A model generated the notes under the pieces. That model ran no database searches, was not told where the DNA came from, and was given only the letters and a program-made list of their open reading frames with translations. Of a stretch of 64,000 nt of DNA, positions 1,265 to 61,600 are shown in pieces; the stretch's first letter is position 1; each line of letters starts with the position of its first letter. Both the position numbers and the translations under genes were made by a program. The stretch is from Branchiostoma floridae (taxonomy: Eukaryota > Chordata > Leptocardii > Amphioxiformes > Branchiostomatidae), in the NCBI RefSeq assembly GCF_000003815.2, contig NC_049987.1, positions 22,993,661-23,057,660 on the forward strand. The letters are read 5' to 3'.

Positions 1265-2652
1265 CCCCGACGCCCTCGCCGTTCTACCAGGGGGACATCG
1301 TGGTGTCCCCGTCGGAGCTACAGGCGCTCAGACACCGCCGGGCCGCGGTGAAGGACCGCTTACTGCTCTGGCCAGAGGGCGTCATACCCTTCCAGCTCAA
1401 CAAGACTACTCTGGGTACGATGGGACATAACTTTTCTCTGATCCTGGTCATTTGTTCAAACAGTTCAAGACCTGCCTCTTATTACCCCCTTTGTATTAGG
1501 ACGGTGTTCTCGCCGTGCTCTCTCATTTACCGAACTTGACCTTCCTTTTTGCAACTGCATTCACCAAATATTATACAGAACGATCAACAACTTCTCGATT
1601 TGTGTTACCGCTACTCAAATACCGAATATCATGAAGATACATTTACATCGTTTCTAGTTATGCTCTTGACATACAAACACACCCACAATAAAGTTGCTCT
1701 GCCATGGTACAACTTCATGGCGAAGATCTAGATACGAACTAAAACGGTCTAACAACACTCAATGACCTATAAAACTTATAGAAAGAGTCTAGTTTGATGT
1801 TACTTTCCTCTTAATTTCCTTCTGAATTGACTAAAACGCTTTAGACACACTCGGTGACCCCAGGAGAAGTTTTAATATCATTTCCTTTCTTTATCATTTT
1901 TTTAAAGACAGGAAAACGCGGAAGGTAGTTCGGGCCGCCATGAGACACTGGATGAGGAAAACTTGTGTCAAGTTCAGGAAGAAGAAGAGAGGAGATGTCA
2001 ACTTCCTACATTTCATCGGGGATGCGGGGTGAGTCTTTGAAAACATCAAAATCTTGAAAAGTTCACTTTAAATATATTTGGTTAATATTATTAGACATTC
2101 TATAGGGAAGTTACAAGTTCCAAAAGAAGCCACATGGACAGTCATACTTACGGTAGACTATTATGATAACCACCGTGATACTGATACAAACTACAGTCAT
2201 TTCAAGGACAAAACCTTTGGTAATCATTCGGATATTCTATCTTGTGTAGAGTTTTTTGAGATGGAATAAATTTCTACGTTTCTAACAATGTGTTTCATTT
2301 CGTCACAGTTGATGACCGTACGTAAGTTTCAATTTGTAAATTGTTCTTGTGGACAAAGCTAGAGAAACATCACAATGAGCCTACGTACATTATACACAAC
2401 ATTTTTCTGACCAGTGGAAGATTAGCTCTTTAGTAGATCCACTTGCAATCCATGTGTAATCCATTTGTAATCCGTTTGTGATACGTTTGTAATACGTTTG
2501 TAATACGTTTCACAGTTGCTGGTCGTACGTGGGAATGCAGGGCGGGGAACAGAAGCTGTCCCTGGGGTCGGGCTGTGAGCTGTTCGGTACCGTGGTGCAC
2601 GAGATCGGCCACGCCGTCGGCTTCTGGCACGAACAGGTACCTCTCCGGTCTA

Positions 2653-2688
<36 letters not shown>

Positions 2689-5600
2689 GTCCCTGGGGTC
2701 CGGCTGTGAGCTGTTCGGTACCGTGGTGCACGAGATCGGACACGCCGTGGGCTTCTGGCACGAACAGGTACCTCTCCGCTCTATGTTGTTATTGTTGTTG
2801 TTGTTGTTATTATTGTTGTTGTGCCCCTGGGGTCGGGCTGTGAGCTGTTCGGTACTGTAGTGCACGAGATCGGACATGCAGTGGGCTTCTGGCACGAACA
2901 GGTACCTCTCCGGTCCATGTTGTTGTTGTTGCTGTGTTGTTGTTGTTGTTGTTGTTGTGTCCCTGGGGTCGGGTTGTGAGCTGTTCGGTACCGTAATGCA
3001 TGAGATCGGACACGCCGTGGACTCCTGGCACGAACAGGTACTTCTCCGCTCTATGTTGTTGTTGTTGTTGTTGTTGTTGTTATTGGAGTCGGGCTGTGAG
3101 CTGTTCGGTACCGTGGTGCACGAGATTGGACATGCCGTGGGCTTCTGGCACGAACAGGTACCTCTCCGGTCTATGTTGTTGTTGTTGTTGTTGCTGTCGT
3201 TTTTGCTGTTGTTGTTGGCTTCTGGCACGAACAGGTACCGTCTACTGTTCTTCTCTTCGGTCTATGTTGTTGTTGTTCACCTTGTGGTTTTCGATGCCAC
3301 AATGGGCGAAAAGTTTCCTTGCTGTTTCAGTAGCAGGGTATATCTTTACTGGGAGGCCCATATGAGGTTGTTAGCCCATCCTCTTTAACATGCTGGAGAC
3401 ACATCCTCGAGCCCCATTTTACATTCCTTACGAAAGACAGGTGCAGCCCCAACCAAGATGCCCTAACCAGGATTGAACCAAGGTTTCCCAATTACCAAAC
3501 TAATTGCAACCAAGTGAGGAGAAAAATATAGGGCAAGCCTTCTTTGTCGGCTTACAAAGATCGACAAAATCTAAATGCTTTCAGATCAATGTACAGATCA
3601 GAAAGCGCGCAAAACGGAACTAGGAAAGTTTGTAGGTAATTTAAAGGCTTTTCATAGAAAAGCTCATTCTTAAAATCCAACCCAAAGAGATTCTAGACAT
3701 TCTTCAGGATGATGACCGACTTGATTTCCAACACGTGACCTTGGAAGCACGTGACTCCAGGAATGGGTCAAAGGTGCAAGGAAGTCTGTATCACCCCCCG
3801 TCTCGGTCTGATAAATGTTGTTTATGGGATGTGATAGACTTTCATTGCCCTACCATTTCAGTGCTCGACATGTCTGTAAGGAAGTGTAGGGCATGGGTTT
3901 CTGCCACACTTGAACATCACCACTGTCCTAACCATCTGTTCTGCTGATTCGATACGTGGTTGTTGCAATGCCACACCGACGACAAATTTACTGCTAAGTC
4001 TAACTCAAGGACTTTGTCAGTCTACACAATTATACAGTACACACGGAGGGGCGTACTTAATAATGGGAACAATTGGTGGAAAGTTACGACTTGTCCACTG
4101 TAAACTCCGATGCAAATTGGCCCCTGTTGAGACGCTATTTACAACTCCGTCCCCTCGCACCTGCAGGTAACGATGTTTGGGGTTTCCACCCTCCTTCCCT
4201 GCATACCTCCACACGCGAGGATCCTTAAAGCTAAAGCTAAGGGCACAACCCACCGTACGTGCAGTTTGTCCGTACGTTTTTGGGGAGGCCATGTCCGCCA
4301 CGTATTTCTGAAAACGTGGGGAACGACTGGCAAGAGCAGGGAGGGAGTACGTCAACGCATGGCACACAAAGTTTTGTCTGCACGTAAAGTTCTACGGCGT
4401 GTCTGTATGCTCTAAAATCATCCGTCGGATTCCCTACGAGTTCGTACCGAGGCGGTACTTACCACTTACGGATCCCAAAAGATTGCCCACGTTTGGGCAC
4501 GTAGACAGCACGTATTTGCACGTGCGGCGGGTTGTGCCCTTAGCTTAACTCCAAATTGCTCGCGATGTTCTAAATTCCTCCCACAGCCCCGCTAGTATCC
4601 CCTCCCAACTCCCGAGGATTACCTTTTTATTCTTCCCGTTGTCGCTCGCTGGAAGGCAGACTTAACCCCGCCAACCCTTGGACCTTGTATACACTGCAGG
4701 ACCTATTGGCAACATTAGTTAGGAACCCTCTCTGTGTAAGGATCAAATCTGGGTGGTAAACAGAGAGACCTTCGTGTTCTCGTCTGGATTTTGTCAGTTT
4801 AGGAATCAAAGACCGAAATTTAAAATTTCTAGCTCGCGGATAAAGCTGCATGCTCAAAACGGATTACAACATTTTTTCTTTGTGGCAAAATAATGAGTTA
4901 AACAAGGTAGCAATTACTCAAGGAACTGTGTAGATTTTGGAAACGCAGTCAGAGAGACCGTACCGTAAGACGTTTAAGACAACCAACCACTACAATATTC
5001 GACTGAGTCTTCAAATTTACCCAAGTTGCTTGGGTAACCTATATTGAGTATCTTATTACCGGTTTACCTGGATATCTAACCTTCATCAATGTAAGATATA
5101 TAATTAGTTATTTTGACTCTTAGCATGTTTTGTAGTATTGCCGTCGTGAGATTTGTTGAGCGCTCGTACCAAAAAGACATTAAACAAAGGGAACGTTAAG
5201 AGACGAACAAAAGAACGGTGAAAAACCTTTCTTCCTGCTAATAGCTGTCCGTGTTTACTTCAACACAAATTCCCAAACACGCCTGTAATTCTTCCTCGTA
5301 ATAACATGCCCAGCCAGTTGCTTGAGTGACTGATATCTTGTATATCTTATTACCCGAATGTCTACTGACTTTCATCGACGTAAAATGATTAGATATGCTG
5401 ATTCTTGGTATGTTTGGCATATTGTCTTCGTGAGATTTGTATAGCTCCCATACCAATAAAAACACATCGAACAATAGAAACACAAAGAGACGAACAAAAG
5501 AAAGATGACCGTGTTTAGCTCCACAGAAATTCCCCCACACTCCCGTAATTCTAGCCGCGGCTCCTGTGTTATTTCCCGGGGACGGTTAACCGTGCTGTAA

Positions 5601-8600
5601 CCCTTAGGCTGGCGGCTGCGGGAGGAATGTGGGAATAAGTAGTCGGTTGAAGCTGTAATTATTGTAATGAAGCAGCGCAGGTAGCTGTGTGGACCGGATG
5701 TGCCCGACCCCGGGCGGACTGACACAGACATAAAAGTCGCCGACCGCAGGATAGATGTATGTAATAATCTCTAAACAGTCGTACAAAGGATAGATTAGAA
5801 CGTTCTTCAAGGCCGAATGACTAAATACTTCATGCTTTAGAGTAATTTCATTGGGGCCAAGAGTTTATAAAGGAAAGGACAAATCATATTTCAATGTAGA
5901 CGGGCTCAAGTCGAACCCTACTGTATATATAGCCTCCAAAGAAAGTCTGGTCTTTGGCATTTTTTGGGAGTATTATGTGCTGTTTTGAATTGTATACCGG
6001 CGTCAAACTCTGCTGTGTGGATGAAGCCTCCGCCAGGCCTTCCTACGGGGGTATGGGTCGTAGATTCGGCAAAAGGGAAATACTGTAAATACAGAAATGT
6101 TCGCGGTGGATTAATGTTCGCGGTTTTCGCGATGGCCACTTCACCGCGAATTTAAAACCACCGCGAACATTTTTTTTATTCTGGTATTAGACTGCAGTCT
6201 TTGGTGCTACCGCGAACTTAAAACCACTGCGAAAAGTCCTTTTTCCCGCTACCGCGAAATTAAATGCATTTACAGTAATTGGCCGGGAGAGTCACACAAC
6301 TCTGGCATGCTATCTGTCTATTGGCCAATTTCTACTATTTCTAGCGTCCTGTGGAGCCTGCTAAAAGGCTAGATCGTATTTTTTGTCACGGCCAAATGGA
6401 TCGGTGTTCCGCGGAGCTTGGGCTTGAGAAACGTCACCTTTTGGCCTGCCTACATCTGTTTGGAGATGACTAAAGCTAGTCACCTTTATCTTAATTGCGG
6501 GATAACCTATATGAAATATTACAGTTTGAAACCACCGTCCGTCGACAAGATATACCTAAATACCCTGTTTTGAATATAGTGGATAAAGGCTACCGCGTAG
6601 ATAAAGGTGAAATAGCGTTATCCATGCCCCCATATACCCCCTTTCCACTAGGACGGCGCTCTAGCCTCGCTCTCTCTGCGACAGAGAACGTTTGACATAT
6701 CGCTCAACGAATTTACACTTTTGGCACACTTTTACATGCTGTATGATAAACCCAGTATGAAATCAAAGGTTACACATATTCTATTTCGGTCACAGTAAGA
6801 GCGCAGCGCGATCGCCGTCTAGTGGAAAGGGGGCCTTAAAAAGACCTGACGGAAGCCAGGTATGTTTATGTCAAATCATCCCTGAAAATTCTACTCCAAC
6901 AAAAAATCCCATGACAAGTGCTACCGCGCCTTACAGCACCGGATCAGAGACTTCTATGACTGCACAGAACATGAGGTCATACAATTACACCCTCCGAACC
7001 GTTAATTGTCTCCGGACGGGGGTATTAATTAGCCTAATCACCGCTAATGACAGGCCCCGGCGTCCGTATAATGCAGGCCATCATCATGTCGACACAAACC
7101 GTGTCATCAGGACCTGCCCCTTCGGCGAAACGTCAAATTGCTCAAATACTCGGAAAGTGTCATTCACTCGTCCTCAACGCAAACAGAACTCGTTTGGGTT
7201 GAAATGGGGTCTTTTATGCCGTATTTCGTATGCTGTTTTCGCTGTAGTCGCCAAGATGAAGAATTAAAATGGTAAGCCTTAGACTGCCGTTTATTATGTT
7301 CTCCAAATCCGTCCATATTTCAGGAGCTTTACATAACGTTACCTGTCATGTCATGGCGGACATTATGTCTTACATATCGCAGGTGTCTGGTCTTGGCGCC
7401 AAGAGACTGAAGGCAGCAGCCAGAAAAAAATCATCAAAGCTTGATCAAAGGGAAGAAGCAGACGATACACGGGATACATGCACCACTGAATACCTGTTCA
7501 TGTATGTCCTTATTAATACTAGCCCCGCGTCAGTTCGCAAAGCGTAGCGTGTTTAACTCAAAGCCCAGAGGTTCTGGGTTCGCATCCCCCAGTGTGCTCC
7601 AACGTTGGGCAATGAAAGGTACTTAAGACGACTTTCCTCACTTTGCTGCATGAAAATGAGTACCTAACTTCGGTTAGGGCCGTCCTTCAGATAGGACATT
7701 AAATGGAGGTCCTATATTCGAGAAGAGCCACACCTTGGAAACGTTAAAGAACCCACCACACTTATTGAAAAGAATAGGTGTCCTTCCCAGAGTGAGTCGA
7801 TAGAATAAATCTGTCCGGGTATGCCGCTTGTACTCTTGACCCCCCCCCCCCCTCATTCATGCAGTCTTCCACCGATCGTTTAAAAATGACATCAGTGTCG
7901 AAGGAATGCCGTGTTACACCTCTAGTGTTTTGATGAAGTTGGAAGGCTTTCCCACAACCCAATTCGGGTTAATCACGTCATGATAAGACAATGTCACTTC
8001 GTACTGTTAAAATGTATTTACTTTATACTTAAAGATCTAGAAGACAACAAACAGGGTGTTGAAACATCTATGGAGTAGAAACATACAGTGACGGTGCGGT
8101 TATGTACCTGAGAAACACTATGTTGAACTGTTTACTTCTCCTGTTATAAATAACCTTGTGAACTACTAATTACCGTTGTGAACATGTCACCACAATGTCA
8201 CGTAGGTTCACCAACGACCTTCATCGCAACCATTTCTTTAGTGCCCTTTGTCCGGGCGTCCTCTAAGGAGCTTAAAGTCTCAATCTGCCAATTTTGTGCC
8301 CCGCCCACCCCTTTCTCCTGCGCGGCTTTCTGTCCCCACACTGCAACCATTAGCCGTGCTCAGGGGATCTGCAGTGATCGCGCACCTATTCTTCGTTAGG
8401 TTAGCAGGATAGAGAAGTTTATCCGCACCTTAAACTGTCTGCTCGGTGTGTTTAGGCGATCACGGGGTGAATGGTTCCACCACAATGGGGCGGATTGATC
8501 CCTGGGAGAGGAGGGTTAGTTAAACACAGCAAGGCTGCATTTCTCGTTTTACCCGTAAACGACTCGGCCTTTGTGAGTCTCACAAACGATTGTGAGTTTT

Positions 8601-11600
8601 CAGCGACAGTTAAGGGAAGATTTGACGCGTTATGCGGCTTGGGACAAGCATTCAAAATGTCTCCTGTGAGGGTTAGGTTAGGTCCTTTCTGAGTTTTGCC
8701 ACTTCATTCTACTTTTGTCGTTGTGAGTTTCAACGTTTCAGCTACATTTAAGGGGGGATTTGACGCTTTATGCGGCTTCTGACAAACGAACAAATGTCTT
8801 CTGTGAGGGTTAGGTTAGGTCCTGAGTTTATCAAAACTGACACTTACACGTCACTCTGCCTTTGTCATTGTGAGTCTAAGCGTTTCAGCTAATTTAAGAG
8901 GAGATCATTTCAGCTTTGACGCTTTATGTGGCTATTGACAAGCGAACAAAATGTTTTCGGCTGTGAGGGTTAGGTTAGGTCCTTTCTGAGTTTATCAAAA
9001 TTGTCACTTGCACGTTATTTTGCGTTGTCATTGTAAGTCTTAAGGTTTTCAGCAACATTTAAGGTGAGATTTAACGCTTTATTCGGCTTCTGATCATGAC
9101 AAGCATGAAAAATGTATTCTGTGAGTGTTAGGTTAGGTCCATTCGAATGCTGCTTCTGTGTTTATCAAAATTGCCACTTCGCCTTTGTCACTGTGAGTCT
9201 CAACGTTTTCAGCTACATTTAAGGGCAGATTTTACGCTTTATTCGGCTTCTGACAAGCATGAAAAATGTATTCTGTGAGGGTTAGTTTAGGTCCATTCTG
9301 CTTCTGTGTTTATCAAAATTGCCACTTCGCCTTTGTCACTGTGAGTCTCAACTTTTCAGCTACATTCAACTTTTCAAGGGGAGATCATTTTTCAGCAAAG
9401 TGGCTTTAGACAAGCATACAAAATGTATTCTGTGAGGGTTAGTTTAGGTCCATTCTGCTTCTGTGTTTATCAAAATTGCCACTTCATCTTTGTCACTGTG
9501 AGTCTCAACTTTTCAGCAACATTTAAGGGGAGATAATTTTGCAGCAAAGTGGCTTTAGACAAGCATACAAGATGTCTTCTGATAGGGTTAGGTTAGGTCC
9601 ATTCTGCTTCTGTGTTTATCAAAATTGCCACTTCATCTTTGTCACTGTGAGTCTCAACTTTTCAGCTACATTTAAGAGGAGATCATTTTGCAGCTTTGTC
9701 GCTTTAAGTGGCTTTAGACAAGCATACACGACGTCTTCTGAGAGGGTTAGGTTAGGTCCTTACTGCCTTTCTGTGTTTATCAAAATTGCCACTTCGCCTT
9801 TGTCACTGGGAGTCTCAACTTTTCAGCTACATGTTTGATGGGCCCCTTGAAAATCAACTATGCACTGTTGTAGGGGCTACCCATCTGTTTCAAGATGAAA
9901 TAAATAAATAAATAAATAAATTAAAGGGGAGATCATTTTGCAGCTTTGACGCTTTAAGTGGCTTTAGACAAGCATACACGACGTCTTCTGTGAGGGTTGG
10001 GTTAGGTGACTTAGGTCAATTCTGCTTCTGTGTTTATCAAAATTGCCACTTTGCCTTTGTCACTGTGAGTCTCAGCTTTTCAGCCACATTTAAGGGGAGA
10101 TCATTTTGCAGCTTTGACGCTTTAAGTGGCTTTAGGCAGTCATACAAAATGTCTTCTGTGCGGGTTAGGGTAGATCACTTCTGCGTTTATCAAAATTGCC
10201 ACTTATACGTCACTCTTGATCTGCTTTTGTCCTTGTGAGCTTCAACCTTCAGCGACATCTAAGGAGAAATCACTTTGCAGCTTTATAGCTGTAAGCAATA
10301 TCTCATCGTTAAGGTTTAGCTTAAACCTCCCTTTACGTGTTTATCAAAATTGCAACTTGTACGTCACCCTCCTTTTGTATTTTTACACCTTAGGGTAGAG
10401 ATATTTTGTAAGGTTTTAACGCACGATCGCGAGAACCGTTGTGGTTTTGGCATAGCTGTGGCTAAGCCAAGTAAAGGTGGAAGTGGTACAGTAACGTTTG
10501 GCTGTTGTGCTTCAAGGTTTTAATAGCATTTCGTTGCTCGAAAAGCATAAATGGATTACATGGTCAGGACAGAAGTATCGTTACGAGTTACGGCCAGGAA
10601 TATACTAGTAACCCATGAGATTATACATCAGCCATTTTGACAGCTAATACAATTAGACCTGTACAATTAACCGCCTGTGTATAAGGATAATACTACTTAA
10701 GGTAGTTGTTTCGTAAGCCTTTTTAATACGGACCCCAACAATACGTAAAGGCTACAGGATACCATGGAATAACGCATCTGACAAGTACAACCCAACAAAC
10801 TGCTGAAAGGACACGTAATGTTTATGTTTACGTACACGGATAGGGATCATAAAGAGTACTTAACAAAAAAAGGAAACTTTGAAATAACGCAGGTGTCAAG
10901 TTACTTCGAAAAGCACACGTAAAGGTAATATTAACGAACATGGATAGTGGTAGTAAAGAACGAAAAGATCCTTTAAGTAGTATTTAAGCATGTATGGGAT
11001 GTCTGTGTGGCGCAACGGCTAGAGCGTTGGAATCAGAATCAGTAGGTCCCGAGTTCGATACTCGCCATGCCCCTGCCCCCATGACGGTGGAGTGACGCCC
11101 ACCGAGCCTCATAGCTAATCTGTACAAAGGTGCCAAAAACACCTACGGATTTGGTGCTGCTAGTGTGACAACATCTGCACACTTGCCACTATTAAAGACC
11201 CGTGAGATTTTTTTCAAGCATGCTTAAAAATTGTTTTCCGTGTTGTGGCAGGCCCGTTACGACCGGAACAAATACATCCGCATCCTTCGGGGGAACATCC
11301 TTCCCGGTGCCGAGGAGAACTTCGACAAGATGACGTACAAGACCATCAACACGCTGGGTGTGGCGTACGACTACAACAGCATCATGCATTACGGACCCAA
11401 CTACTTCTCTGTCAACGGGAAACCGACTATCAAGGTACGGCTGTCTGGGGGTGGGGGGTGTAATGTGGGGGTGGGGTGGGGGTAGGGTCACACGTGGCGT
11501 ACGACTACAACAGCATCATGCACTATGGACCAAACTACTTCTCTGTCAACGGGAAACCAACTATCAAGGTACGGCTGGCTGGCGTTGGTTAGGGTGGGTT

Positions 11601-14045
11601 CACACATGCGTATATAGTCCGTATGAGGTCCGTATGGGATCCTTAGCCTCTACCAGGCTCCACAGATGGCTGAAAAAAATGAAAGAATTTGGACAAGTAT
11701 AAAAACATAATATTACATACCAGGGGAGGTGGTCACAAACCATACTCCTCGGCCAGCATACTCCTATGTGTCTGCATATTTGTCCAATTTTTACTCATTT
11801 TTAGTGACCTGTGGGGCCTGGTAGAGGCTAAATATTCCATACGGACCTCATACGGACTTGGAAATATATACGCTGTTGTGAACCCACCCTTAGCCTGTGT
11901 TATGCTTCGGTTACGATTGGAAAAGGGGGCTTCTTTTGCACTTTTGGGCGTGACCCCTACATTGCCCCGTGGGACACACTGTGTCTACCGGGCTATTTTG
12001 GGGGCACGGCCGGGCCCCGGGATGATTTTAACAAAGAGTTAAACCCCTAGAATTGTGGCGCGCATGGCGTCAACATCAACGGACACTAAAGCATAGGGAA
12101 GACTGAAAATGACTGCTACTATTGATCATATCAAACGAGCCAAGTTGATGTCTAACTTTATAAAGTAACGTTTAATATCTAACTCAAGTTTACAAACATT
12201 TCCTTTTTTGCCAGGTGAAGCGCATCGGCTGGAGAGCCAAGCCTAAGATCGGGCAGCGGAAGGTACTGAGTGAGCTGGACGTTGCGCAGACTCGGCACAT
12301 GTACCAGTGCAACAGGAAGGACATGCAGAGGCGGAGAAAGGGTAGGCGTGATGGGATGTCACAACAGATGTTTGATATAGCACCTAGAATATGTGGCGTC
12401 GAATGACTGAATGGCTAGGCTAGGGTTCGGTTCTTGATATCTCTTGATAGACTTTGTGTCCAACGAAAATACACGTTCCTCACTTTATCCAAGTATAAAA
12501 CGACAAAGTACCAGTAACATGTCGAGGTCTAGAGTTGCTTCTCGTGACGTCAGATGAAGATTTCCGTCACCGTTACCTCATTTCGTTGAAAAACGCCGAA
12601 AGTATGCCCTTTGCAAGAATATCAAATACATGTTCCTTTTTCATGGTCATAACTTCTTCAACATTTTATCTATATCCAATGACAATGCAACATAGAAAAT
12701 TAAAAACGACTAGCTGTTACGCCAAAAAGCAGTTACTCAAGCAACTGGATATGAATTTGGAAACGGTCAGACGTTTCAGATAACATCCATTATCTTTCGT
12801 CAGTGACACTATCCTAACTATGATATGCGAAGGAGATGAAGACAGTACCTGGATGTCTAACATTCATCAACGACCACCTGTTAATTAACGGAATACTTTC
12901 TTCATCTCCACACAGACGTGTGTTTCTTCAGTAAGTACGGTGACGGCAGAGACTACCGGGGGAACGTGGACTACACTCTGGAGGGGGTCACGTGTCAGAA
13001 ATGGACGTCACAGTGGCCGCAGGCGCACTGCGTCATGTCCAGATACTGGCTCGGGGACAAGGTACGTTCACATGTTATCATGGAAGCTCGTATGTGTTGG
13101 TAGTAATCATCGTCAAAACTAAATTTTATTCCAACACAAAAAGTACACACGGATCAAGTTTTCAACGACCACTGTCACCTTCTTCGGGATCAATACTTCA
13201 TTGATCCTGGAAGTACGTTCACAAAGTTGCTGTTGAACTTGGTCGCCGATCAGAAAACGTCTTATGTTATGTTGTTAGAGCTAGGCGTGCCTTCCTATGT
13301 GGAAGTTTCTAACCTAAAAACTGGCTTGTTCTGACGTAAGTTCACCTTTATCCGCGCCGTAACCTATAGCCGGTGTTTTTGAAAACAAGGTATTTCAGGG
13401 TAACAAGTTGACGGGTGGATTCAAAATGTAATATTTTCAATATCGAACTGCAATATTATCAATATCGAACTGCAATATTTTCAATATCAGCAGTTTAAAA
13501 TCACCGTCCGTAGACTATATAGCCCTAAATACCCTTTCTTTTTAAGACAACATATACAGGTAACCCTGAACATCGATAAAGGTGAACTAGCGTTCGGGTT
13601 TTTAGTGGAAGAAACATGAATAATGAGGGGGAAGGAATCTTCAAATATGAAGTGAAGAGGAAGACTAAAGAAAGAGTAGCCGCGATGAGAGGGTTACGTT
13701 GGGGATCGCATTCTTCACACTGCAGCAGCGCCGCCTAGCTGCAGTGCGAAGTATAACAATTCAGTTTTGAACAGGGTGTAAAGTTTCAGTTATAGCATAT
13801 CCCGTTTAATATCGATCTTTAAAGATTAAGCTTTTATGATTTTAAACTTTTTTTAGATGGACGGTTTGGGCAACCACAACTACTGCCGCAATCCGGGCGG
13901 GAGAAGGTCGCGGCCGTGGTGTTTTACGACCCTGGAGGGTACGGAATGGCAGTACTGTGACGTCAGGATATGCAACCCGTTGCCGAGAAGAAACGAGAAC
14001 GAGAGCACCAGCCTCCCCACCAGGAACAACCTGGACAAGAGATGA
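1265..14045 (+). CDS. Astacin-family metalloprotease with C-terminal kringle domain (5' exons not found)
   Basis: A secreted zinc endopeptidase. Seven exons join in phase: 1265-1414, 1908-2028, 2516-2636, 11252-11434, 12215-12341, 12916-13061 and 13857-14045 (TGA). Exon 1 reads the end of the propeptide and the mature N-terminus (WPEGVIPFQ). Exon 3 holds the zinc site [12 protein letters not shown], a perfect HExxHxxGFxHE. Exon 4 holds the Met-turn SIMHY. The four astacin cysteines are present (RKTC, GCWSYV, GSGC, MYQC). The last two exons encode a kringle: YRG, CQKW, NYCRNP, RPWC, YCDV and the final C, with one extra Cys in AHC; the intron splits it before [11 protein letters not shown] short basic tail follows. 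Signal peptide and most of the propeptide are not visible. The exon 2 acceptor was set at 1908 because the AG at 1916-ish would break phase. Polyadenylation signals follow at 14723 and 14735. Domains are clear; the join is inferred. Confidence 0.85.
2561..3262 (+). repeat. Minisatellite of partial zinc-site exons with (TTG)n tracts
   Basis: The 3' two thirds of the astacin zinc exon, its donor (CAG|gtacct) and a following TTG microsatellite are repeated in tandem. Copies start near 2561 (the real exon), 2691, 2823, 2961 and 3085, with a stub from 3217; units are about 124-138 bp. Every full copy still encodes HEIGHAV..WHEQ. The fourth reads VDSWHEQ instead of VGFWHEQ and would lose the third zinc-site glycine. 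Only the first copy has an acceptor before it; the others have donors only. The poly-Leu/Cys/Asn reading frames across here are products of the TTG repeat. Confidence 0.9.
4235..4548. mobile_element. MITE with ~22-bp terminal inverted repeats
   Basis: The left end agctaagggcacaacccacc is matched by its reverse complement at the right end (ggttgtgcccttagct, 4528-4545 region). The ~314-bp interior has several acgt-rich words and no ORF. It lies in the large astacin intron between the zinc-site and Met-turn exons. Confidence 0.7.
5000..5560. repeat. Direct duplication of ~200-300 bp
   Basis: The segment around 5015-5222 is repeated, diverged, at about 5320-5510: both run from 'tatcttattacc' through 'cgtgagatttgt' to 'gagacgaacaaaagaa'. 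The word pair 'ttgcttgggtaac / gagtatcttattacc' also recurs alone near 12730, 36010 and 59870, so part of the unit belongs to a dispersed family. Confidence 0.6.
6080..6280. mobile_element. Foldback MITE with tactgtaaat ends
   Basis: The ends tactgtaaat and atttacagta are inverted repeats. The interior is made of alternating words such as 'ttcgcggt' and 'accgcgaa' that pair with one another, giving a long imperfect hairpin. A related diverged copy lies in HELB-B intron 3 (about 57312-57475). Confidence 0.65.
6637..6833. mobile_element. Short MITE with ccccctttccacta ends
   Basis: Left end ccccctttccactaggacgg (6637-) and right end cgccgtctagtggaaagggg (-6833) are near-perfect inverted repeats around a ~155-bp interior without an ORF. 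The sequence before it (from about 6510) resembles segments near 13490 and 46117, so these may be pieces of a larger element. Confidence 0.65.
7545..7700 (+). mobile_element. tRNA-derived SINE, family 1
   Basis: A pol III B-box-like ggttctgggttcgcatcc is followed by a body with 'acgactttcctcact' and 'aatgagtacctaacttcggtt'. The same body occurs at 60215-60430 (+) and 47625-47850 (-). The A box is poorly preserved. Confidence 0.6.
8540..10400 (+). repeat. ~155-bp satellite, about 11 tandem units
   Basis: Each unit contains 'tttatcaaaattgccactt', 'tttgtcactgtgagtctcaa', 'ttcagctacatttaagggga', 'gctttaagtggctttagaca' and ends in 'gtgagggttaggttaggtcc'. The last motif recurs near 8676, 8812, 8972, 9131, 9283, 9441, 9589, 9748, 10000, 10164 and 10314, mostly 136-166 bp apart. 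The 252-bp step is explained by an insertion at 9832-9923. Middle units are most alike and the edge units diverged. The ORFs over it are incidental. It lies in the same astacin intron. Confidence 0.9.
9832..9923 (+). mobile_element. LINE/SINE 3' tail inserted in the satellite
   Basis: About 92 bp that interrupt one satellite unit and end in 'caagatgaaataaataaata', an ATAA-type repeat tail typical of non-LTR 3' ends. The preceding 'ggggctacccatctgtttc' is not part of the satellite unit. Confidence 0.6.
11001..11212 (+). mobile_element. tRNA-derived SINE, family 2
   Basis: A good A box (tggcgcaacggctagagcg) and B box (gagttcgatactcgcc) sit at tRNA-like spacing from 11001 on, but the acceptor-stem ends do not pair and a ~140-bp unrelated body follows. 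I therefore read it as a SINE rather than a functional tRNA gene. It lies about 40 bp before the astacin Met-turn exon. Confidence 0.7.
11491..11577 (+). repeat. Duplicated 3' part of the Met-turn exon
   Basis: The last ~76 bp of the astacin exon at 11252-11434 ([16 protein letters not shown]...) and its donor gtacgg are repeated once, 57 bp downstream (11494-11569), with only synonymous-looking changes. There is no acceptor in front of the copy, so it offers an extra donor and not a separate exon. Confidence 0.85.
11591..11890. mobile_element. MITE with agggtgggttcaca ends
   Basis: Left end agggtgggttcacac and right end gtgaacccaccct (to 11890) form inverted repeats. Inner words 'gtccgtatgaggtccgtatg' and 'catacggacctcatacggac' also pair, as do 'cctctaccaggc' and 'gcctggtagagg'. 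The ~300-bp element has no ORF. It sits directly behind the duplicated Met-turn exon. Confidence 0.75.
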
Positions 14046-18560: not shown

Positions 18561-18570
18561 GGACACAAGT

Positions 18571-18868
18571 TTTGCCCTACATGTAAGCCGTCCAATTTGG
18601 TGAGCATGTTTCTACATATCTGTCCATTTTGATGGCATGGACTTAACCATACCAAACAGGGGGGGAGGTCAATGTTTCTCGTCAAGATGTACAACACCCT
18701 GACCCCCCTACAGAATAGTGCAGTCTTTTGCCCTACATGTAAGCCATCAAATTTGGTACATATTTTTCCATTTTGATGGCATAGACTTAACCATACCGAA
18801 CTGGGAAAGGGGTGGAGGGTGGTGATAGTGTTTCTAAGACCCTGCCCCCCTACAGAATAGTGCAGTCT
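18571..18868 (-). repeat. Two-unit tandem duplication covering the end of Rheb
   Basis: Two ~150-bp units (about 18571-18725 and 18727-18868). Both contain 'ttttgccctacatgtaagcc', 'tccattttgatggcat' and 'ccccctacagaatagtgcag'. The last word is the complement of the Rheb C-terminal codons and stop, so the duplication took in the end of the coding region and part of the 3' UTR. The outer copy is downstream of the true stop. Confidence 0.85.
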
Positions 18869-47800: not shown

Positions 47801-50800
47801 ATCCAGGACCGCTGGGTTATGGGTCAGGCACCCTGCAATTACTCCACACAGCCCAATATATTTTTTCAGTTTGGAGATTGAGTTAACAGAGAAAGAAAGT
47901 ACTGAATCAGATAATGATATTGTGATGAGTTCTACTTACGTTCCTCCCCCTCAACTGGGACCTCATGAAAATTCCTTTCTGCATCAAACCGAGGCAGCTT
48001 CCGCTGTGAGATCCGCTTTGCGTTGTCAACAATCAGCCTGGACTCTGATCTGTAAACAATCTGTATGTCAGCCTCTGCAGTTTTGTTTCAAAATAACTTA
48101 ACAAAGACACGTACCTATGCTGTAAATTTGAGTTTTTAATCTAGTAGAAGGGACCAGAGACAATTACTACATAGGACTTTAATTCCTAAATTGAAAGTTA
48201 GTCAAACGCAGTTAAAAGAATCCACACCTGTGATTGGTCTTCAGCTCGATGCTCCAGCCAATGGGAGCCAGGGAGTGGTACATGTTGGTGAGGAAGTTGC
48301 CCGGCTCTATGGAGGGCAGCTGGTCCACATCTCCCAGCAGCACCAGCTTCTGTAGGCAGGTGTGCTTCAGCAGGATATCGAACAGGGTGGAGAAGGTCTG
48401 TACTGATACCAGACTGCTCTCGTCAACAACCAGCGCTCGCACGTGCTTGAAGCGCCATTCATCACCGGGCTTCAAGTGTCTGTAGGACCAGATCACCTGG
48501 TGTAGCGTGTACGCCTTCAGGCCTGTACGCTTGCCGAGAAGGTGGGCGGCTTTTCCTGTGGGAGCGGTCAGTAGGATCCTGGTCGCTTCCTCTTCCTCAT
48601 CATTTCTGTGTTGGCTCAAGCTTGTAGAGTGTGGAGATGGACTTGTTATGGCTCCTGACTTGGAACTCTCTGGCATGCTTTCACCTCCAATGGCCTCCTG
48701 GTCTGCCTCGCTGTTTCCCTGCCCAGACAGACTGTTCAAACGGGAATCTGCGGTCTCGTTCATACGCTCTTCTGTTTGCTTTTCAGCCTGGTGAATCTGC
48801 CTGTGTGCGACTTTGAACACCTCGCTGACCACGTACGTCTTCCCACACCCACCTTTCCCAGACAGCACAGTGACAGGGTTCTTGCAGATCAACTCAGCTG
48901 CTTGCTTCTGGGCTTCATCTTCTCCAAAGGCTCCTTCAAGATTGGCAGAGTCTATCACCCACTTGCTTATCTTGTCTTTAGCAAGAAGTGTTTCAATACC
49001 ACCTCTGATGTTGTTTTCGTAGTCGTAGTACCGCTTCAAAGCGACTTTCTCTTCTAGCTGAACTGTGATCTTGTTCTCCTCCAAAAACTTCAAGGTATTG
49101 TTGTCTCGCAAGCGGAGGGATTCCTTGTCCACAAACGTATGGCCAGCCTTTCGACACTGGGACTTGATGAAGTCATAGATGTAGATGGCGTCCCTCTTAG
49201 TTGGAGGGAACTCCTTCAGAAGGTCACAGCGTTTGAAGGCGTCCAGCGTGGCCTCGACACCGATAAACTGGTGCTCCTGGTACATGATCTGGGAACAGTA
49301 TACGTACATAATGGAAAAGATTAGAGTTAGGCAAAACCTGCCATCACAGATCTATTTCACATGTAAATTGTCACTGTTAATAGGGGAATAGCTGCAAAAT
49401 ACCACAGAAACAAAGAGGGATTATCAGAATCTGTAAAAGACTTTCATGGTATCAGTATTACGAGACGACAAGAGCCGAAGTTATTACTATCAGGGCTATG
49501 AATGACTGGAATGCTCTAGCACTATTTCTAATCGGTGGTAGAATCAAAAACTGTTAGATACACAATGGGAAAAACATTATTGTAGTACAACACATGAAGA
49601 TATAGTTGAGACACTTTGTGCCTGCTTTCCTGACGACAGTATCAATTAGATCAATCCAACATCCAACAACACATATCATATATTAAAGAACCTACCGGCC
49701 CAAAGCCAAGCTTCCATGGCTCATGTGCAGTAACTGTCTCCAAGACTTTCAGCCTCTCTTCTGAAGACAGAAGAAGTCCGTAGAACTTCTTGGGCAGCAG
49801 CTTGGGACCATAGCGCAGGAAAGTGGGGGCTACCATCGCCTGGGCCTCTTCTTTACCCATAGCTAAAGAATAAACATGAAATGATATTTAATGCATTTAA
49901 TCTAGTTTTAAGTAGGGATGTGTAAAGGTACTAGTACAACTGTACAGGTACAGAGCCATATATTCATAAAAGGTACTAGTATAGGTCCAGAATACAGGAA
50001 AATCAATGCACGGTTACTGTACATGAACACACACACACAAATGCTAGTCAATAACTTGTTAAGTTGCTTTGTTACTAAAAACATGATATTCCTACTGCAA
50101 GGATGTAATTTTTTGAAAAAAAATGAAGACATAGCATGGTCCTTGAAATCAAGCAACATTATTGATTTTTGTCTTTTAGATCCTCTCATGGTTTCTCTAT
50201 AGTCTACGTCATATACAATGCATCAAGAATACTCGGGTCGAAATTCTTTTTTTTGGATTAGGTGCATTGGTGCACCCAGCCTTAAAAATTGGGTACACCA
50301 CATAGAATAAAGTAAAGTGTCAGAAAAACCTAATCACTAGTACTGTCAGACCTTTTGTCATTTTGTTCATAACTAAGATAAGTAGTAAGATAGAAATACT
50401 TCAAGAAACTAAACTAAAGAAAATTAAAAAAAATGGCAGAAAAGTTTATAATAACTCCAGGAAAATTACGATGATAAACAATTTCTGTTCTATCTACTTT
50501 GGGTGCACATGCACCTGGTATTTTAAGCCTTGATACTTAAAGGCTAACCATCAAGTTGCAATTGAGGTATACAACCACCAACTTTATAAAGAAAAAATTT
50601 ATACAACAGACTATGATGCCTGTGAATGATTGATTGATTGTTATGAGGGGCATTCAATAAGTAATGCCCCTGACCCACTACCAGTTGTCTGATCTAGATG
50701 AAATGTTGCATGTGTAATGAGTCATATCTCTATGGGTTATGTTGCAAAAAACAGCTCTGAAGTAATTGTGGTTACTGATTTACTGGTGTTTGAACTGAGT

Positions 50801-53800
50801 CACTGACAGGTGCGAAATGGACCAGGTGTGAAATGGAGCAAGTTGAGTGTCGCGCAGTGATCCGGTTTTTGTATTTGAAAGGACGCACACCAAAAGGGAC
50901 TTTTGATGAAATGAAAAAAACTTATGGTGATGATGCCCCATCATATGACCTTGTAAAACGCTGGCATCCTGAATTCAAACAAGGCCTGAAGTCTGTGGAA
51001 ACAGCTCCCAGACCTAATCGTCCCTCTTCTGCCATTGATGAGGCACCTGTCGGAGGACCAACCTGGGATGTCCTACAAGAACGGTGTCCAGAGCTACATC
51101 AAATGATGGGAGAAATGCATAACTCTGGGTGGTTCCTATGTAGAGAAAGACTAATAACTGTGCCAAGTTTCATTAATCTCCTGCTATGGGAAATGGGTCA
51201 GGGACATTACTTATTGAATGCCCCTCGTACAGTACTTGATATACTTATTCTATCTTTATTTTCATTACTTACCATTTATGCATTTAAGCATTTGTATTGC
51301 CACTGCCTGTGCTGTCTCATTTAATGAGCCATATTCTTGCACTATTTCACGCAGGTTCTGAAAGTTGAGTGGCTTCTGCTTGAGCCGGGGTTCCATCTGT
51401 AGAGATTCTTGAAATGCTTTTCTGTACTGTTCTTCAACTCCACATTTCGTCAGGAAGAGTTGGATCAGGTTCTCGTCAGGGTTCTGGTTGAGTCGGTACT
51501 CGGGACAGCCAGTCGTGAAGTACATGTTGCCTACACGACGACATTCCACGCTGAACTCCCACCATGGGTCCTGCAGAGGGAACCTCCCCTTGACACGGTA
51601 GACTCTTCCTGTCTTCTTTTCTTTCACACGAACTGTGAACATACGCATACATGCATGTAGATGGTACAAAATGTTGCCTGGTATCCAGTCGTAATATAGT
51701 TCCCGAGTCTCTTCTGTCCTCTTCACAATTGTGAAGAGGACAGAAGAGACTCAGGAACTATATTACGGCTGGATACCAGGCTAACAAAATGTAAACATGT
51801 AGATATACATTTGCATCTTACAAACTCACACACGCACACACACATTCACACAGGTGCGCACACACATATAATATATTAAATAACACAGATTCACATACTC
51901 ACACCTTTCGGGGAAATACGATTTTTTAAAATTATGCTACTATAAAACTGGGCTGGGAATGATTTTGCACACAAACTGTGTGCTTTTCATTCAAGAAGGC
52001 AATTCATAGAAAAAACACCATTCATAGGGGGAGGGGCACAGCACAAGGTACAAATAAATATGCATGCAGACTTTCTATTTCTATGTGTTACACTTAGGCA
52101 TGATCTAGATACAGTTTTTCCCGATATCTGCGAGCCGACAACCTCTCGCCGACAGCTTTTTTTTCAGCATCTAGATGGAACTGCAATATCGCTATTAAGA
52201 TATCGGCAAAATTTCTCCCGAATTGTCTGGAGTATTCGCCCGATAGCTTAGCAGGGGTACCCAACAGCTTCCGCGCGCTTGTAGATGCGTCCCGACTTCG
52301 GGAGGGCTCATTAGCAGGGCCCATTAGGCTATATAGCTGTTTATGACTGCAAGCGCTACAGGTGTTACGCCACCAACGTTCCAGGTCCCTCCCGACATCT
52401 CCACAGATATCGGTAAAAACTGTGTCTAGATTGGGCCTTACAGTGATTGATTACTGGGCAAAGCCCTCTTCAGGGGCATCCTGCCCAGGTGCCAGGTGAA
52501 GGGTACCTGGGCGGCTGGGTGCTAATGTCATGTTAGATCATTACACTAGTGCAGATAGTTTGCAGTTGTTATCAATCATTCAATCATTATGCAATAAACC
52601 TAATTTGTAATGTCTTGCTGATGTAATTACATGCTTGAAAAAAGCATGTACTGTTTCTGGTAGGGATCTTTGTGATTCCGGACCGATATCTCTAGAATCT
52701 CTGGATGGATTGCGATTTCCTTTGCTATGGGGATAGAGTGTGTGACCTATTGTGCTATTAAGTAGATTAGAAGTTTGCTGTTGTTTTGTGGTTCGTTTTT
52801 AAAAAAATATTTACACCCCTTTTCCTGATATGGAGTGATCTGGCCTCATTCCCTCTGTCTCAACCTCCTTGGGGACAGCTAGCAGCTGTAACATGTGTTT
52901 TGAGTTTTCAGTAGCATGGGAGTGTGTGGAAGGGTCGTTTCCAGTGCTATATCTCCAGAACAGAACGTGTGATTTACCTCCATGAAAAATGGAGGTATAG
53001 TTTTTGGTGTGTCTGTGTGTGTGTCTGTTTGTGTTTCCACATATTTGTGGTCAGCATAACTTTAGAACCTGTTGATGGATTGTAATGATATTTGGTATTT
53101 GGGTAGGTGTTTGGAAGACGAAGGTCAAAGTCAATTTTGGATCCCCTGGTGTGTGACCTTGGTACTGCAACAGAACTTGGATTTTTGTATCTTTTGACAT
53201 GGATATGCTATGGTCTTGATTTTTGGTGGCACATAGCTTGTGGTGTAAGGAAGAAGTGTTGTATGTTTGGGCCCTCTAGCAGCTTGCTCTAGAACTGCTG
53301 GGGCATTCTGGTCAAAATCTTCCAAGGAGCAAAAAAGAGCAACTGTGACCATCGCTGTCACCTCTGTATGGTGTGAACCATTATATACACATTGAGATAC
53401 AATGTATGTGCCAGGTGCAGGTGTAACAATAGGAAATAAAAATGAAATGGTGAGGACACCAGAAAGGTGTAGTTTTGGATCTCACTGTTTACCATAGGTA
53501 GATATATAACTTAAGAACAATGATGGAATAATTTTGCCAAACGTCAAACCATATCAACCCCCACAACACACCATACGCACCATCACGAAACAAAATATTT
53601 CAAGCAGGTTTGAGTTTTCAGACTCTTGTTAATTGTAAGTTTCCGTTTCGCCATGATAATGCAGTCAGTGGTTATCATAGCGAAATGGAAAAATTACATC
53701 AGCAATAAACTGCATTTACATAGTCATGTATCATTAACAACAACAACAAATTGATCAAATATTTGCCTTTACGCCATGAGCGTTAGATAGAGTAAACTAG

Positions 53801-55600: not shown

Positions 55601-58600
55601 ATGGCGGGTCCATCCAAACGTAGCTGGGGCAGTGTGACGGTTTTGAGTGGCTGTATCGTCCCTAAAGGCGAGGTTCCCGACGCCCCTGACGAAGCAGACG
55701 ACTCCGGGTCAGACGACGATGAGGACGGGGACATGCAGTGGCTCGATATGGACGAGATCGACGACGCGAACGCGGGCGTCTCTGTCGCTACCCCCAAACG
55801 CCTCTGCAACCAGCTTGGTACAGAATTTGGCTTTGTTCTTGTCTTCCACTTTGTTTGCTTTGTTAGTTTGTAGGCAAATCTTGGATCAATGATATGTGAC
55901 TATGTGAACACTTATGCACTTCATAATATTAATAATCTATATTTCACTAATTTCGCCAAGATCACAAGCGGCTGCCACTTGTTGCATGCAACTTATTTGT
56001 CTGCACCTCGCTTCCACCAACTTATATCCTGACGTCCTTGCTCCCACTCAGTGCCCCTCCTTCTTCCCCTTTTGATACAATTTCTTTCCAACATAATTTA
56101 AATCCCAGTTTTGTAGTGGCAATTTTGTGGCATAATATTATTTCCCAAAGGAAGTGTGTGTGTGTGTGTGTGTGTGTGAGTGTGTGTGCGTTTGTTTGGG
56201 TGTGTGTGTGCGACCAATGTATGTGCGTTTGTGTGTGTGTGTGTACTGTGTGTGTGCATGTGTTTGAGTGTGTGCATGTGTGTGTGTATGAGTGTGTCTA
56301 TAGAATTTTGATGTATATTAGTACACGTAAACACATTTTATTTTGTCCCATCTTTGTCCACAGTTCATGTGAGGGACAAATCTGGAAGACTCCACCGCGT
56401 CAAGGGGAGGTTCCCACTGCAGGACCCATGGTGGGACCTCAGCGTGGAATGTCGTTTCAGTGGAGGAAACACGTACCTCACGACCGGCTATCCCGAGTAC
56501 CGTCTCAACCAGAACCCTGACGTGAACATGATCCAACTCTTCCTAAAGAAATGTGGGGTTCAAGATAAGGACAGAGCAGCATTCCACGATGCACTACAGC
56601 TAGAACCACGGCTCCAGGAGAAGCCACCAAACTTTGAGAACCTGTGTGAAGTAGTGGAACAATATGGCTCCTTGAATGAGACAGCAGAGGCGGTGGCAGC
56701 ACAAATTCTTCAATGCATAAACTGTAGGTATTATAATACAATGTACAATAATAGTAATACGTAAAATAAAATAATAAAGTGGTATCATTTTTTTATTCGC
56801 AACTTCACAGAGGCCATAGTATCTGTACCCAAACTGTTTAGACCATGTGCTTTTTAGACTCTTTTAAGAGGATCTCAAGTAGAAATGTTGCTGATGTCAC
56901 GTTAACCATGCTATGTTTTCCTCTTTTTTCCAATACAAAAATTTCACCTTTGTGGTGAAACTTAACACACTTTTGTTTTAACATGAGTAAAAAAGTTGGC
57001 AACTTGAGCATAAGTTTTTTCACACATTGATGTTCTGGTATTTTGGACCTGTGGTTCTGTGCCAGTACCTTTACCAACTTACACATCCCTACTTGAAACT
57101 AATTTGCATTTCATGCTTGTTTCCTCAGCTATGGGTAAAGAAGAGGCGCAGGCGATGGTAGCTCCGACTTGGCTGCGCTATGGTTCCAAGCTTCTTCCCA
57201 AGAGGTTCTACGGACTTCTGCTGTCTGAGAAAGATAAGCTGAAAGTCTTGGAGACAGTGACTGCACAAGAGCCATGGAAGCTTGGCTTTGGGCCGGTAGG
57301 TTCTTCAGATAATATTACCGCAAAAGGGTGAATGTTTGTGGTGGTTGTATGTTTGTAGTTTTGGTGGTAACATTGTCACTGGCAACTTAAAACCCCCACA
57401 AACATTTCTGTAGTACTAGTAGTTACTTAATACTTAATGTATTCCATTCACGTGTTGTTTACTGTAAAATGAATTGACTTTTCTGTTTCATGTTCTGTTC
57501 CCAGATCATGTACTGGAAGCACCGGTTCATCGGCGTCGAGGCCACGCTGGACGCCTTCAAACACTGCAGCCTCCTGGAGAGGTTCGTTTGTTTGTTTGTA
57601 TCTTTATTTATTCATGAGAAGCTCAAATCGGCCTGCAGGTCGCTTTTCATTAAGGTCATGAGGGAAGAGGTAAGGGTCAGATACGAATATAACAGAGGTA
57701 CAGATTACATCGAGTCCTAATACATTTTAAATCTATCTGTATCTGTATCTGCATCTATATAGCCGGTATAACCGCCGTTCGGCGTAACACACCAGCTTAA
57801 CACACCATTTGGTTTGGCGTAACACACCATTTGGTTCGGCGTAACACACCACTATCAACATATATCACTACATAAACATGGTACAAAACATTAGTAGAGT
57901 GAAAGCTCAGCGTTTATAGTTCGTGTCTGATCATTTTGGTAATTTCTCAACAGGTTTCCGCCAACAGAGAAGGATGCCATCTACATCTACGACTTCATCA
58001 AGTCCAAGTGTCGTCGGGAGGGCCACACCTTCGTCTACGAGAAATCCCTCCACCGACGGTCTTTTAGAGACCATGACATCGTAGACAGGGCCAGAGCCAT
58101 GCAGTTTCTTGTAGACAACAAGATCACAGTCCAGCTAGAAGGGAAAGTTGCCTTGAAGAGGTACCATGACTATGAGAACAACATCAGAGGTGGGATTGAC
58201 AAGCTTCTTGAGAAGGACAAGATAAGCAAGTGGGTGATAGACTCTGCCGATCTGGAAGGAGAATTCGGAGAAGACGAAGACCAGAAGAAGGCTGCTGAGC
58301 TAATCTGCAGGAACCCTGTAACTGTCATGTCCGGGAAAGGAGGGTGTGGGAAGACCTACGTGGTCAGCAAAGTCTTCAAAGTTGCACACGACCAGATTCT
58401 CGCGGAGATCGAGGCTGAACGTGAAGATGATGAGCGTCTGAAGAAGGCCCTAGACTCCAGTTTGAACAGTCTGTCTGGGCAAGAAGATAGCCAGGAGGAC
58501 CAGGATTTTACTGAATGTGAAAGCATGCAAGACTGTACCCAAGCAGAAGCCGTAGCAAGTCCATCTCCTCAGTCTACAATCAGGAGTCAACTCAGACAGG

Positions 58601-61600
58601 CTGAGGAAGAGGAAACAGTCAGGATCCTACTGACCGCTCCCACAGGAAAAGCCGCCCACCTTCTCGGCAAGCGCACAGGCCTGAAGGCTTACACTCTACA
58701 CCAGGTTATCTGGTCCTACAGGTAGGGATGGAAATCATGGATCACAACAAATTCAAATCTACCTATCAGTTTGAAGTGTCATTGGTTAGGTCTTGATAAA
58801 CAAAACAGAATGTTTTTTTATTTGAAATAAATAGGACATACTGCTCAAGTGACTTATAGCCTGAGTACCATCCTCCATAATGACTGCTGGCTCAGTACTT
58901 TCACTTGCTAATTCCTTAATTCCATCACTACAGAGGATGGTACACATAGTTAGCAAGCAAAAGCACTGAGCCAGCAGTCACTAGCTATGGGGGATGGTAC
59001 ACAAGCTAAGTACTTATGGCCACTTAAAGGTCTGAACTGAGCCTTAAAATTCTCCAGGATTGGTAAAACTGTTTAAATGTGACAATTTCAAACCTTACAG
59101 GCACTTGAAGGGCGAAGAGTGGAGCTTCAAGGACGTGCGAGCGCTGGTGGTTGACGAGAGCAGTCTGGTATCAGTACAGATCTTCTCCACCCTGTTCGAT
59201 ATCCTGCTGAAGCACACCTGCCTACAGAAGCTGGTGCTGCTGGGAGATGTGGACCAGCTGCCCTCCATAGAGCCGGGCAACTTCCTCACTGACATGTACC
59301 ACTCCCTGGCTCCCATTGGCTGGAGCATCAGGCTGAGGACCAATCACAGGTGGGGATTCTTTTTTTAATTGTGTTTGAATACTTTTGAGTACTGCCCTCC
59401 ATAGAGCCGGGCAACTTCCTCACAGACATGTACCACTCCCTGGCTCCCATTGGCTGGAGCATCAGGCTCAGGACCAATCACAGGTGTTTATTTACTAGTA
59501 TTTAGATATTCTACTGATGTCCAAGGGAACCCTTATAAAATTATAAGTTTATAACAAGTTTTTAAAAAACGCCAGTAGGCTATGTGTACTTGCCTGGTTA
59601 GATAAATAAACTGAAACTGAAACAAGTTAGGATACCGACAGGATTATAAAGCATTATTCTGATTGAAAAAAGGAAAATAAATGTATGTTGAAGTTTTAAA
59701 GGTGGTTTGCAGATTTTCCATGACCTCTTCATGCTTGTTCTGTCTTCTACCCTAGTACTCAATAGTTTCCACCACAAACATTCAATCTTCTCAAACTAAA
59801 TAAGATACAATACAGATTAGAAATCAAGGTAGTAATAAGATACATGGAAAATCCAAAATTATATCCAGTTGCTCGAGTAACTGCCTTTTGGTGTATCTCA
59901 TTACCTCAATTTCTAACCCTCATCAATGTAAACAGATACAACATGTCTTTGTGTAAGTATTTTGAAACAAAGCCATGCAGAATCTGACTAACAGTTTGTT
60001 TACAGATCCGAGTCCAGGCTGATTGTGGACAACGCCACGCTGATCTCACAGCAGAGACTGCCTCACTTTGACCCAGAAAGGAATTTCCACGAGGTCAGAG
60101 TTGACAGGGAGGACAGTAAGTACAATGACAGTACTACAGTCATTACTTTCCTACACTGTAAACTCAATACCCATTGATATAAAAAAAGATATTGGGTCAC
60201 ATGGTATAACTTCAGGGTGTTTGACACAGAAGCCAGAGGTCCTTGGTTTGAATGCCGTCATGCTACTGACCTTGTGCCTTTTGGAAAGACACTTAACACA
60301 ACTTTCGTCACTCCACCCAGGGTAAAAATGGGTACATGACTTCAGTCGGAGAGGTAAAAGGCGGTGAAAGGAGAGGTTTGGACTCCTTCTTCCAGTACCG
60401 TGCTCTAGACACAGTGGATATCAACCCTGTGCCCTTACACCCACAAAAAGCCTATGGGACTACCTTTACCCTCTCTTTGTCCTTTGTATGTGGCACTGTT
60501 AAAACAGTGTCACTAACTTGTGTCACAATGTTCTTAAAGCATACTAAAAGATGTTTTTATAAAGTAAGAAAAAGGTTCCAGACTTTACAGACGTCTTTGT
60601 GAAATGATTTGATTGTTTGTTTGTCTTGCAGTGTTGACCAGTGCTGTGACTCATCTCCTAAAGAGTGGCTGCGCAAAAGACCACAAGTCCTCACAGTTTG
60701 TTGCCTTCAGGAGGTTGGTTTTTGGTTTGAAGGTTCATCTGTGTTGATAGATTTCATCATGAAGAAGCCTTCTTGAATTGTAATTGCGAACACAAAGAAT
60801 TAGACCGACGACCAAATTTTTAGAGTAGTGAGTATGATGCCAGTCTTTGTCACGTATTGAATCTGCTGCATAAAGTATTGTCGTAAAATTGCAGAGACTC
60901 TGTGATGCTAGCCTGGGTACCATCCGTATTCTACCGGGGCTCCTTACACTCGCTACCCCTAAAAAGCGAGTGTAAGGAGCCCTGGTAGAATACGGATGGT
61001 ACTCAGGCTACTGTGATGCAGCCTGCTCCCTCAGATCTGATGGCGGGATCTAACCCTGGGAGCGACTGCATCCAATTAACAACTTTGATCCCGGGGGGCC
61101 CAAAGATCCACATTCATTCCTTGACAAAGACTGTTGTACAGTCAAAAAATTTGAGTTTATTTATATAATATGTTCATTTTTTTTAATGTTCACACAAAGA
61201 AGCCATTTTACTCAAGAATGGTATTATTTTCTCCCCAGTGCCTTTTGTACCATGATGGTAGTGGTGAGGTTGTGTGTTTGGCTATAAATGAGAGCTGTAG
61301 TGCAGCCATATTGCACCACATTGCACCTCTTGCTATTTGAAAAAGCATTTTGCTTCATCTCAGATAACTGTTTTACCTCTTGTTATACAGGAAGGACTGC
61401 AACATCATCAATGAAGTGTGCTGTAAGCTGTACTCTGGACACTGCATAAAGAACAACAAGAACCGAAGCTGGATTATGGTAAGATATTAATGCTCTGGTT
61501 CATTTTAAGTTTGCATGATAATAGCATCTGCTGACAGAATTCTGATTGGTATACTAATACTGAAATTTTGAATGCAGGTGCAGCCCCAACTGAAATGTCT

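Follow-up and report, generated by a model that had tools for sequence, protein, structure and literature searches.

The exons of neighbouring genes in a stretch of 64,000 nucleotides of the Branchiostoma floridae genome (NC_049987.1, positions 22,993,661 to 23,057,660; hereafter the window, with positions counted from its first letter) are in several places accompanied by tandem copies of their own borders, each copy carrying a single splice site. This raises the question of what these arrays are, whether they point to a process that acts at exon edges, and how the copies, which offer decoy splice sites beside the true ones, have changed since they arose. A first-pass annotation of the sequence had listed five such arrays and proposed a systematic process, replication slippage or repair at exon edges, as their source.

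Genes and repeats of the window

The gene models were built by hand from open reading frames and splice signals and comprise 41 exons and 74 splice borders, the coding share of the window being 13.1%. The forward strand carries an astacin-kringle gene (1265-14045, 7 exons) in which Pfam confirmed both domains, TIPRL (28349-37104, 7 exons, Pfam TIP41) and the helicase paralogue HELB-B (55601-63778, 13 exons seen), and on the reverse strand lie the helicase paralogue HELB-A (55348-41807, 13 exons) and a single-exon gene of the Ras family, called RHEB (19401-18850), with a Pfam Ras domain. The names HELB and RHEB are provisional, as Pfam gives only a helicase domain for HELB-A and a Ras domain for RHEB. 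Models that skip every decoy yield open reading frames. TIPRL could be aligned across its repeated exons and is collinear with the solved TIP41-like protein 5w0w, and the astacin domain is likewise collinear with the solved BMP1 (6bsl), which supports the true edges as chosen for these two genes; for HELB-B the closest solved match is only a distant one, RecD.

HELB-A and HELB-B are inverted head-to-head paralogues (41807-63778), and a single exon of HELB-A (49288-48228) corresponds to exons 4-6 of HELB-B, so that two introns have been either gained or lost. The last HELB-A exon contains an in-frame internal duplication of 117 bp, or 39 codons (41963-42144), and in the Ras-family gene a direct repeat of 156 bp extends over the last coding bases and the 3′ end (18570-18869), a copy of an exon end that involves no splice border. 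A satellite with units of about 150 bp occupies part of astacin intron 3 (8596-10370). TIPRL intron 1 holds two long open frames (28970-31957), the second of which matches reverse transcriptase and which may belong to a DIRS-like element, and two further retroelements are represented by reverse-transcriptase open frames at 24570-25790 and 38706-40064. A short element whose inverted ends measure 36 bp (50642-51229) lies in HELB-A intron 2, and its open frame may resemble a mariner transposase.

Arrays at exon borders

Tandem Repeats Finder and repeat searches recovered all five arrays at the places, sides and copy numbers given in the first-pass annotation. They belong to three of the five genes modelled, all on the forward strand, with three arrays on the donor side and two on the acceptor side. 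At the donor of astacin exon 3 (true exon 2516-2636, supported by collinearity with BMP1), an array at 2557-3277 consists of five units of about 134 bp and a sixth, partial copy; its five decoys have donors after positions 2767, 2901, 3037, 3157 and, in the partial copy, 3234. Exon 4 of the same gene (11252-11434) has a donor array at 11360-11606 with two copies spaced by 134 bp, of which one is a decoy (11494-11568) with its own donor. At the acceptor of TIPRL exon 2 (32764-32943) three copies with a spacing of 156-157 bp span 32366-32855, the two decoy acceptors being located at 32451 and 32607 and the unit ends having GGGA(C/T)AG in common, and at the acceptor of TIPRL exon 4 (34426-34557) four copies spaced by 170-175 bp span 33891-34476, with three decoy acceptors at 33911, 34081 and 34251. 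The donor of HELB-B exon 6 (59101-59349) is part of a pair of copies (59258-59486) that are spaced by 134 bp and 98% identical over 95 bp; the single decoy (59392-59483), which also has a donor, starts 42 bp into the intron, and only 3 intron bases match in this second copy.

Each array contains one true edge, namely the copy joined to the remainder of the exon, and the decoys are located on its intron side. The GT or AG is kept at all 12 decoy sites. On a splice-site score trained on the introns of the window, decoys of three arrays come near the corresponding true site, and those of TIPRL exon 4 and of HELB-B exon 6 are weaker. As the first-pass annotation stated, no copy comprises the full exon with both splice sites, and the complete copies expected of whole-exon (mutually exclusive) duplication are accordingly seen in none of the five arrays. 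The lack of full-exon copies was rejected as a clue to the origin of the arrays, since, given the sizes of units and exons, chance predicts such copies in just 2-12% of border-spanning units of 100-170 bp. In contrast, two similar complete exons, each with both splice sites, are found in tandem in a myosin gene elsewhere in the assembly (L053, 3898-4183). A fixed, nucleosome-like unit was also rejected, as the units measure 134-175 bp in the window but 58, 124 and 203 bp elsewhere.

Correspondence to the known mirages of amphioxus

The statement in the first-pass annotation that minisatellites at exon-intron borders had been described at the amphioxus Adh locus proved right, as such repeats have been named 'mirages' and were also reported from globin genes (PMC3087553). 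The five arrays of the window are amphioxus mirages and not a new kind of repeat. The globin mirages, as characterized in PMC3087553, have units of 150-160 bp on the acceptor side in BflGb6 and of 157 bp on the donor side in BflGb9, and thus resemble the window arrays in unit length, in being copies of borders and in occurring on both donor and acceptor sides. According to the same source, BflGb6 haplotypes differ in copy number, the units show concerted evolution, and RT-PCR suggests that mirages do not interfere with splicing. The Adh3 mirages, as summarized there, likewise consist of repeats spanning the border, although their units are smaller (10-72 bp), and their copy number is unstable, also somatically. 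Imperfect tandem repeats of 60 and 108 bp in the lancelet PGBD5 gene overlap splice sites as the window arrays do and vary in copy number between assemblies; in that case gene prediction turned the repeats into an exon (PMC3902484), whereas the proteins of the window need no such exon.

Both published globin mirages were recovered among nine globin stretches taken from the same assembly, BflGb6 as an array on the acceptor side with a period of about 150 bp (L062) and BflGb9 as a donor copy at 157 bp (L058). Two globin exons are positioned head to head on C7, approximately 42 kb apart, and BflGb5 and BflGb9 are reported head to head at about 40 kb (PMC3087553). The globin mirages differ from those of the window in the genes concerned, and the main text of PMC3087553 does not use the word 'synonymous', the codon pattern presented below being undescribed there.

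Exon borders among local duplications

Five of the 12 local-duplication loci in the window span a splice border, with 1.46 expected (P 0.0095), and within gene spans the border is involved in 5 of 8 loci (expected 1.74, P 0.014); the loci were listed by hand, with a GT repeat at 56154 excluded and a GT-rich locus at 38567 included. Because the window had been chosen for its border arrays, a second sample was taken from the same assembly, consisting of nine Cpn60/TCP1 gene regions, to which we attach the label CCT by assumption, and four myosin-head gene regions, located by Pfam searches. Its 15 stretches add up to 118,214 bases and contain 76 seeded exons and 131 scored borders, which were set by the splice-site score around HMM matches, so that unseeded exons are absent. 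In this sample 4 of 15 local-duplication loci lie on a border, with 0.96 expected (P 0.012); a fifth locus flagged initially (L045, 6775-7228) was removed as its acceptor was judged mis-set (the true one being at approximately 6887), and a mirage on an exon unseeded by HMM (L047) is outside the count.

By event counts, borders are thus over-represented 3-4 times in both samples. By covered DNA there is no excess, as only 4 of the 74 window borders are well inside a local duplication, compared with 11.3% of intron points, a figure partly made up of the border arrays themselves; for intron points at a distance of over 200 bp from any exon the value is 15.2%, or 7.5% without one satellite. Intron-only duplications of a similar period are present in both samples. 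Border arrays take in 5 of the 74 borders of the window and, among the 131 borders scored in the Cpn60/TCP1 and myosin genes, 4. A dedicated process acting at exon edges has partial support but is not established.

Architecture of the arrays

In astacin exon 3 and TIPRL exon 2 the spacer between the copies recurs past the outer copy, which is what contiguous tandem duplication demands; astacin exon 4 shows the same weakly, where the match comprises 20 bases with a score of 25 against a shuffled maximum of 23. Beyond the outermost copy of TIPRL exon 4 and HELB-B exon 6 the spacer was not found, and simple contiguous tandem duplication was for that reason rejected as an origin common to all five arrays. 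The spacers of TIPRL exon 4 contain a sequence that matches about 40 other places in the genome and is part of a longer dispersed repeat family.

For the HELB-B pair, HELB-A was used as an outgroup. The intron start of HELB-A resembles the spacer that comes after the true edge in HELB-B (score 32 against a shuffled maximum of 30) and a second edge copy was not found in HELB-A, so that the extra copy was probably gained in HELB-B, at 42 bp from the start of the intron. Over 92 bases the two copies in HELB-B share 97.8% identity with each other, and 94.6% and 93.5% with HELB-A. Stitching of two alleles was rejected for this pair, as the flank past the second copy is unlike the intron start.

Codon pattern of the decoys

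For each decoy, the exon part was compared in frame with the corresponding true exon. Synonymous changes make up 33 of the 42 substitution events (0.79) in the five arrays, whereas placing these changes at random yields a mean of 11.6 and a maximum of 22 in 20,000 trials. CpG hypermutation was rejected as the source of this excess, since weighting CpG sites up to 20-fold brings the null mean to just 13.9 and leaves the result unaffected. A dead decoy beside a constrained exon would be expected to have a synonymous share of about 0.416, from which the window differs with P 1.1e-6. The same tendency is seen in four mirages of Cpn60/TCP1 and myosin genes, with 6 of 7 changes synonymous (a change in L045, aligned as ATC to ATT, is entered as synonymous, and L042 was not scored as its exon part is too short), and in the two published globin mirages, where 18 of 25 distinct events are synonymous after BflGb6 decoys D2 and D3, which are identical, had been merged by hand. 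For all mirages found by similarity the count is 57 of 74 against the expected share of about 0.416 (P 5.7e-10), the events within one array not being fully independent. Three more astacin genes, on C14, C11 and C12 (L063-L065), have exon-edge arrays that were seen as repeated partial Pfam matches; their pairwise comparisons give 40 synonymous and 22 nonsynonymous changes, which were kept out of the totals because the HMM-list route favours coding-like copies.

A triplet phase is evident in the exon parts, where 42 of 60 changes are in the best phase (null 32.1, P 0.0001), and absent in non-coding local duplications, where 50 of 103 changes are in the best phase (null 50.2), although 8 of the 11 segment pairs in this control stem from one satellite. 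In 11 pairs with a usable spacer, which are not independent and three of which come from the HMM-found astacin L063, divergence is 0.237 at synonymous sites, 0.101 in the spacer and 0.030 at nonsynonymous sites. In the BflGb6 decoy adjoining the true exon the spacer is identical (0/66) but the exon part has 3 synonymous changes and 1 nonsynonymous change, which indicates that the exon part and the spacer differ in history. On statistical grounds the exon parts of the decoys, as read from the sequence, have not been dead copies since their duplication.

The exceptions are TIPRL exon 4, in which only half of the changes are synonymous (5 of 10), and one astacin decoy with three amino-acid changes. 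In TIPRL exon 4 two decoy residues, T and V, match the solved TIP41-like protein and the true exon differs, which suggests that the true exon may itself have changed at these positions. No earlier report of the codon pattern of mirages was found in open-licence papers, and the coding-like change of the decoys looks to be a new element, the arrays themselves being of a known kind.

Discussion

The coding-like change of the decoys argues for exchange with real exon edges rather than for slippage alone. The reading that we prefer, with a probability of roughly 0.55, is that mirages are enlarged by unequal exchange and that their decoys are refreshed via repeated exchange with real exon edges, those of other alleles included. 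The local duplications span one exon-intron border, with the copies mostly 58-203 bp apart in the measured cases, and unequal exchange would then enlarge the array. The decoys would probably be ignored in splicing, having no partner splice site nearby, and gene conversion or unequal crossing over would repeatedly swap them with real exon edges, probably also with those on other alleles. Gene conversion at heterozygous sites in B. floridae is reported to exceed mutation in frequency by orders of magnitude (PMC12862219). The ratio of nonsynonymous to synonymous divergence in the decoys (0.030 to 0.237) is close to the allelic dN/dS of 0.067-0.089 given for B. belcheri (PMC4284660). The synonymous divergence of 0.237, however, exceeds both the allelic dS of 0.070-0.075 in the same source and the spacer value of 0.101, so that alleles would match the ratio but not the depth, which is some three times larger than expected, and although many exchanging copies could explain such depth, the synonymous excess over allelic diversity and spacer is not fully explained. 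The two exceptions in TIPRL exon 4 and astacin likewise count against exchange, as do the approximately 18 of 42 window events that fall at CpG sites.

A process directed at exon edges, with slippage or repair at borders making the arrays as the first-pass annotation proposed, would account for the excess of borders among local duplications in both samples (5/12 and 4/15), yet it is rather unlikely to be the explanation, since borders show no excess by coverage, no scored border is spanned by 7 of the 12 window loci or by the majority of the 15 loci in the second sample, and the excess could partly stem from better survival of exon similarity; such a process alone also leaves the synonymous-only change unexplained. 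That the arrays are ordinary random tandem duplications, with decoys dead from the start and exon copies just easier to notice, agrees with the intron-only duplications of similar period and with the coverage of borders, which is not raised, but the synonymous share of 0.79 in the window against 0.416 for dead decoys already makes this improbable.

Coding-like substitution together with the retained GT or AG at all 12 window decoys is what would be expected if the decoys were functional exon parts under selection, for example via alternative splicing. We give this little credence, because each decoy has a single splice site, the distances between units include 131, 134 and 170, none of them divisible by three, the proteins are collinear with solved relatives when the decoys are left out, splice site or frame has been lost in some decoys elsewhere (L046; L065 D2), and splicing appears undisturbed in the RT-PCR experiments of PMC3087553. 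Joining of alleles of one exon edge in tandem during assembly would fit the synonymous differences, which look allelic, and the reference does come from a very heterozygous genus, with Ns adjoining the L058 array. Such an artefact is nevertheless highly improbable as the window contains no N, astacin exon 3 has five distinct units, the unit boundaries are constant, the published mirages sit at the expected loci and the flank after the second HELB-B copy does not resemble the intron start.

Repeated exchange with real exon edges remains our preferred reading, the exchange itself being deduced from the pattern of substitutions. A tentative extension, to which we assign less than even odds, is that mirages constitute a coding-constrained reserve, in which frequent allele exchange would move exon ends into and out of the real position and on which exon edges would draw for variation genome-wide; in this highly polymorphic animal the present decoys would then have served as real exon ends not long ago or would come to do so. 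Overall, the arrays exist as described and belong to a known kind, and the exon-edge process is half supported; what deserves following up is the coding-like way in which the decoys evolve. For gene prediction in amphioxus, decoy exon edges have to be taken into account. If the codon pattern holds genome-wide, mirages would be DNA in continual exchange with exons and not junk beside them. They would offer a measurable route for exon-edge change and for intron gain, the latter as proposed by the authors of the globin study (PMC3087553), and exchange between diverged alleles would become visible at single exons.
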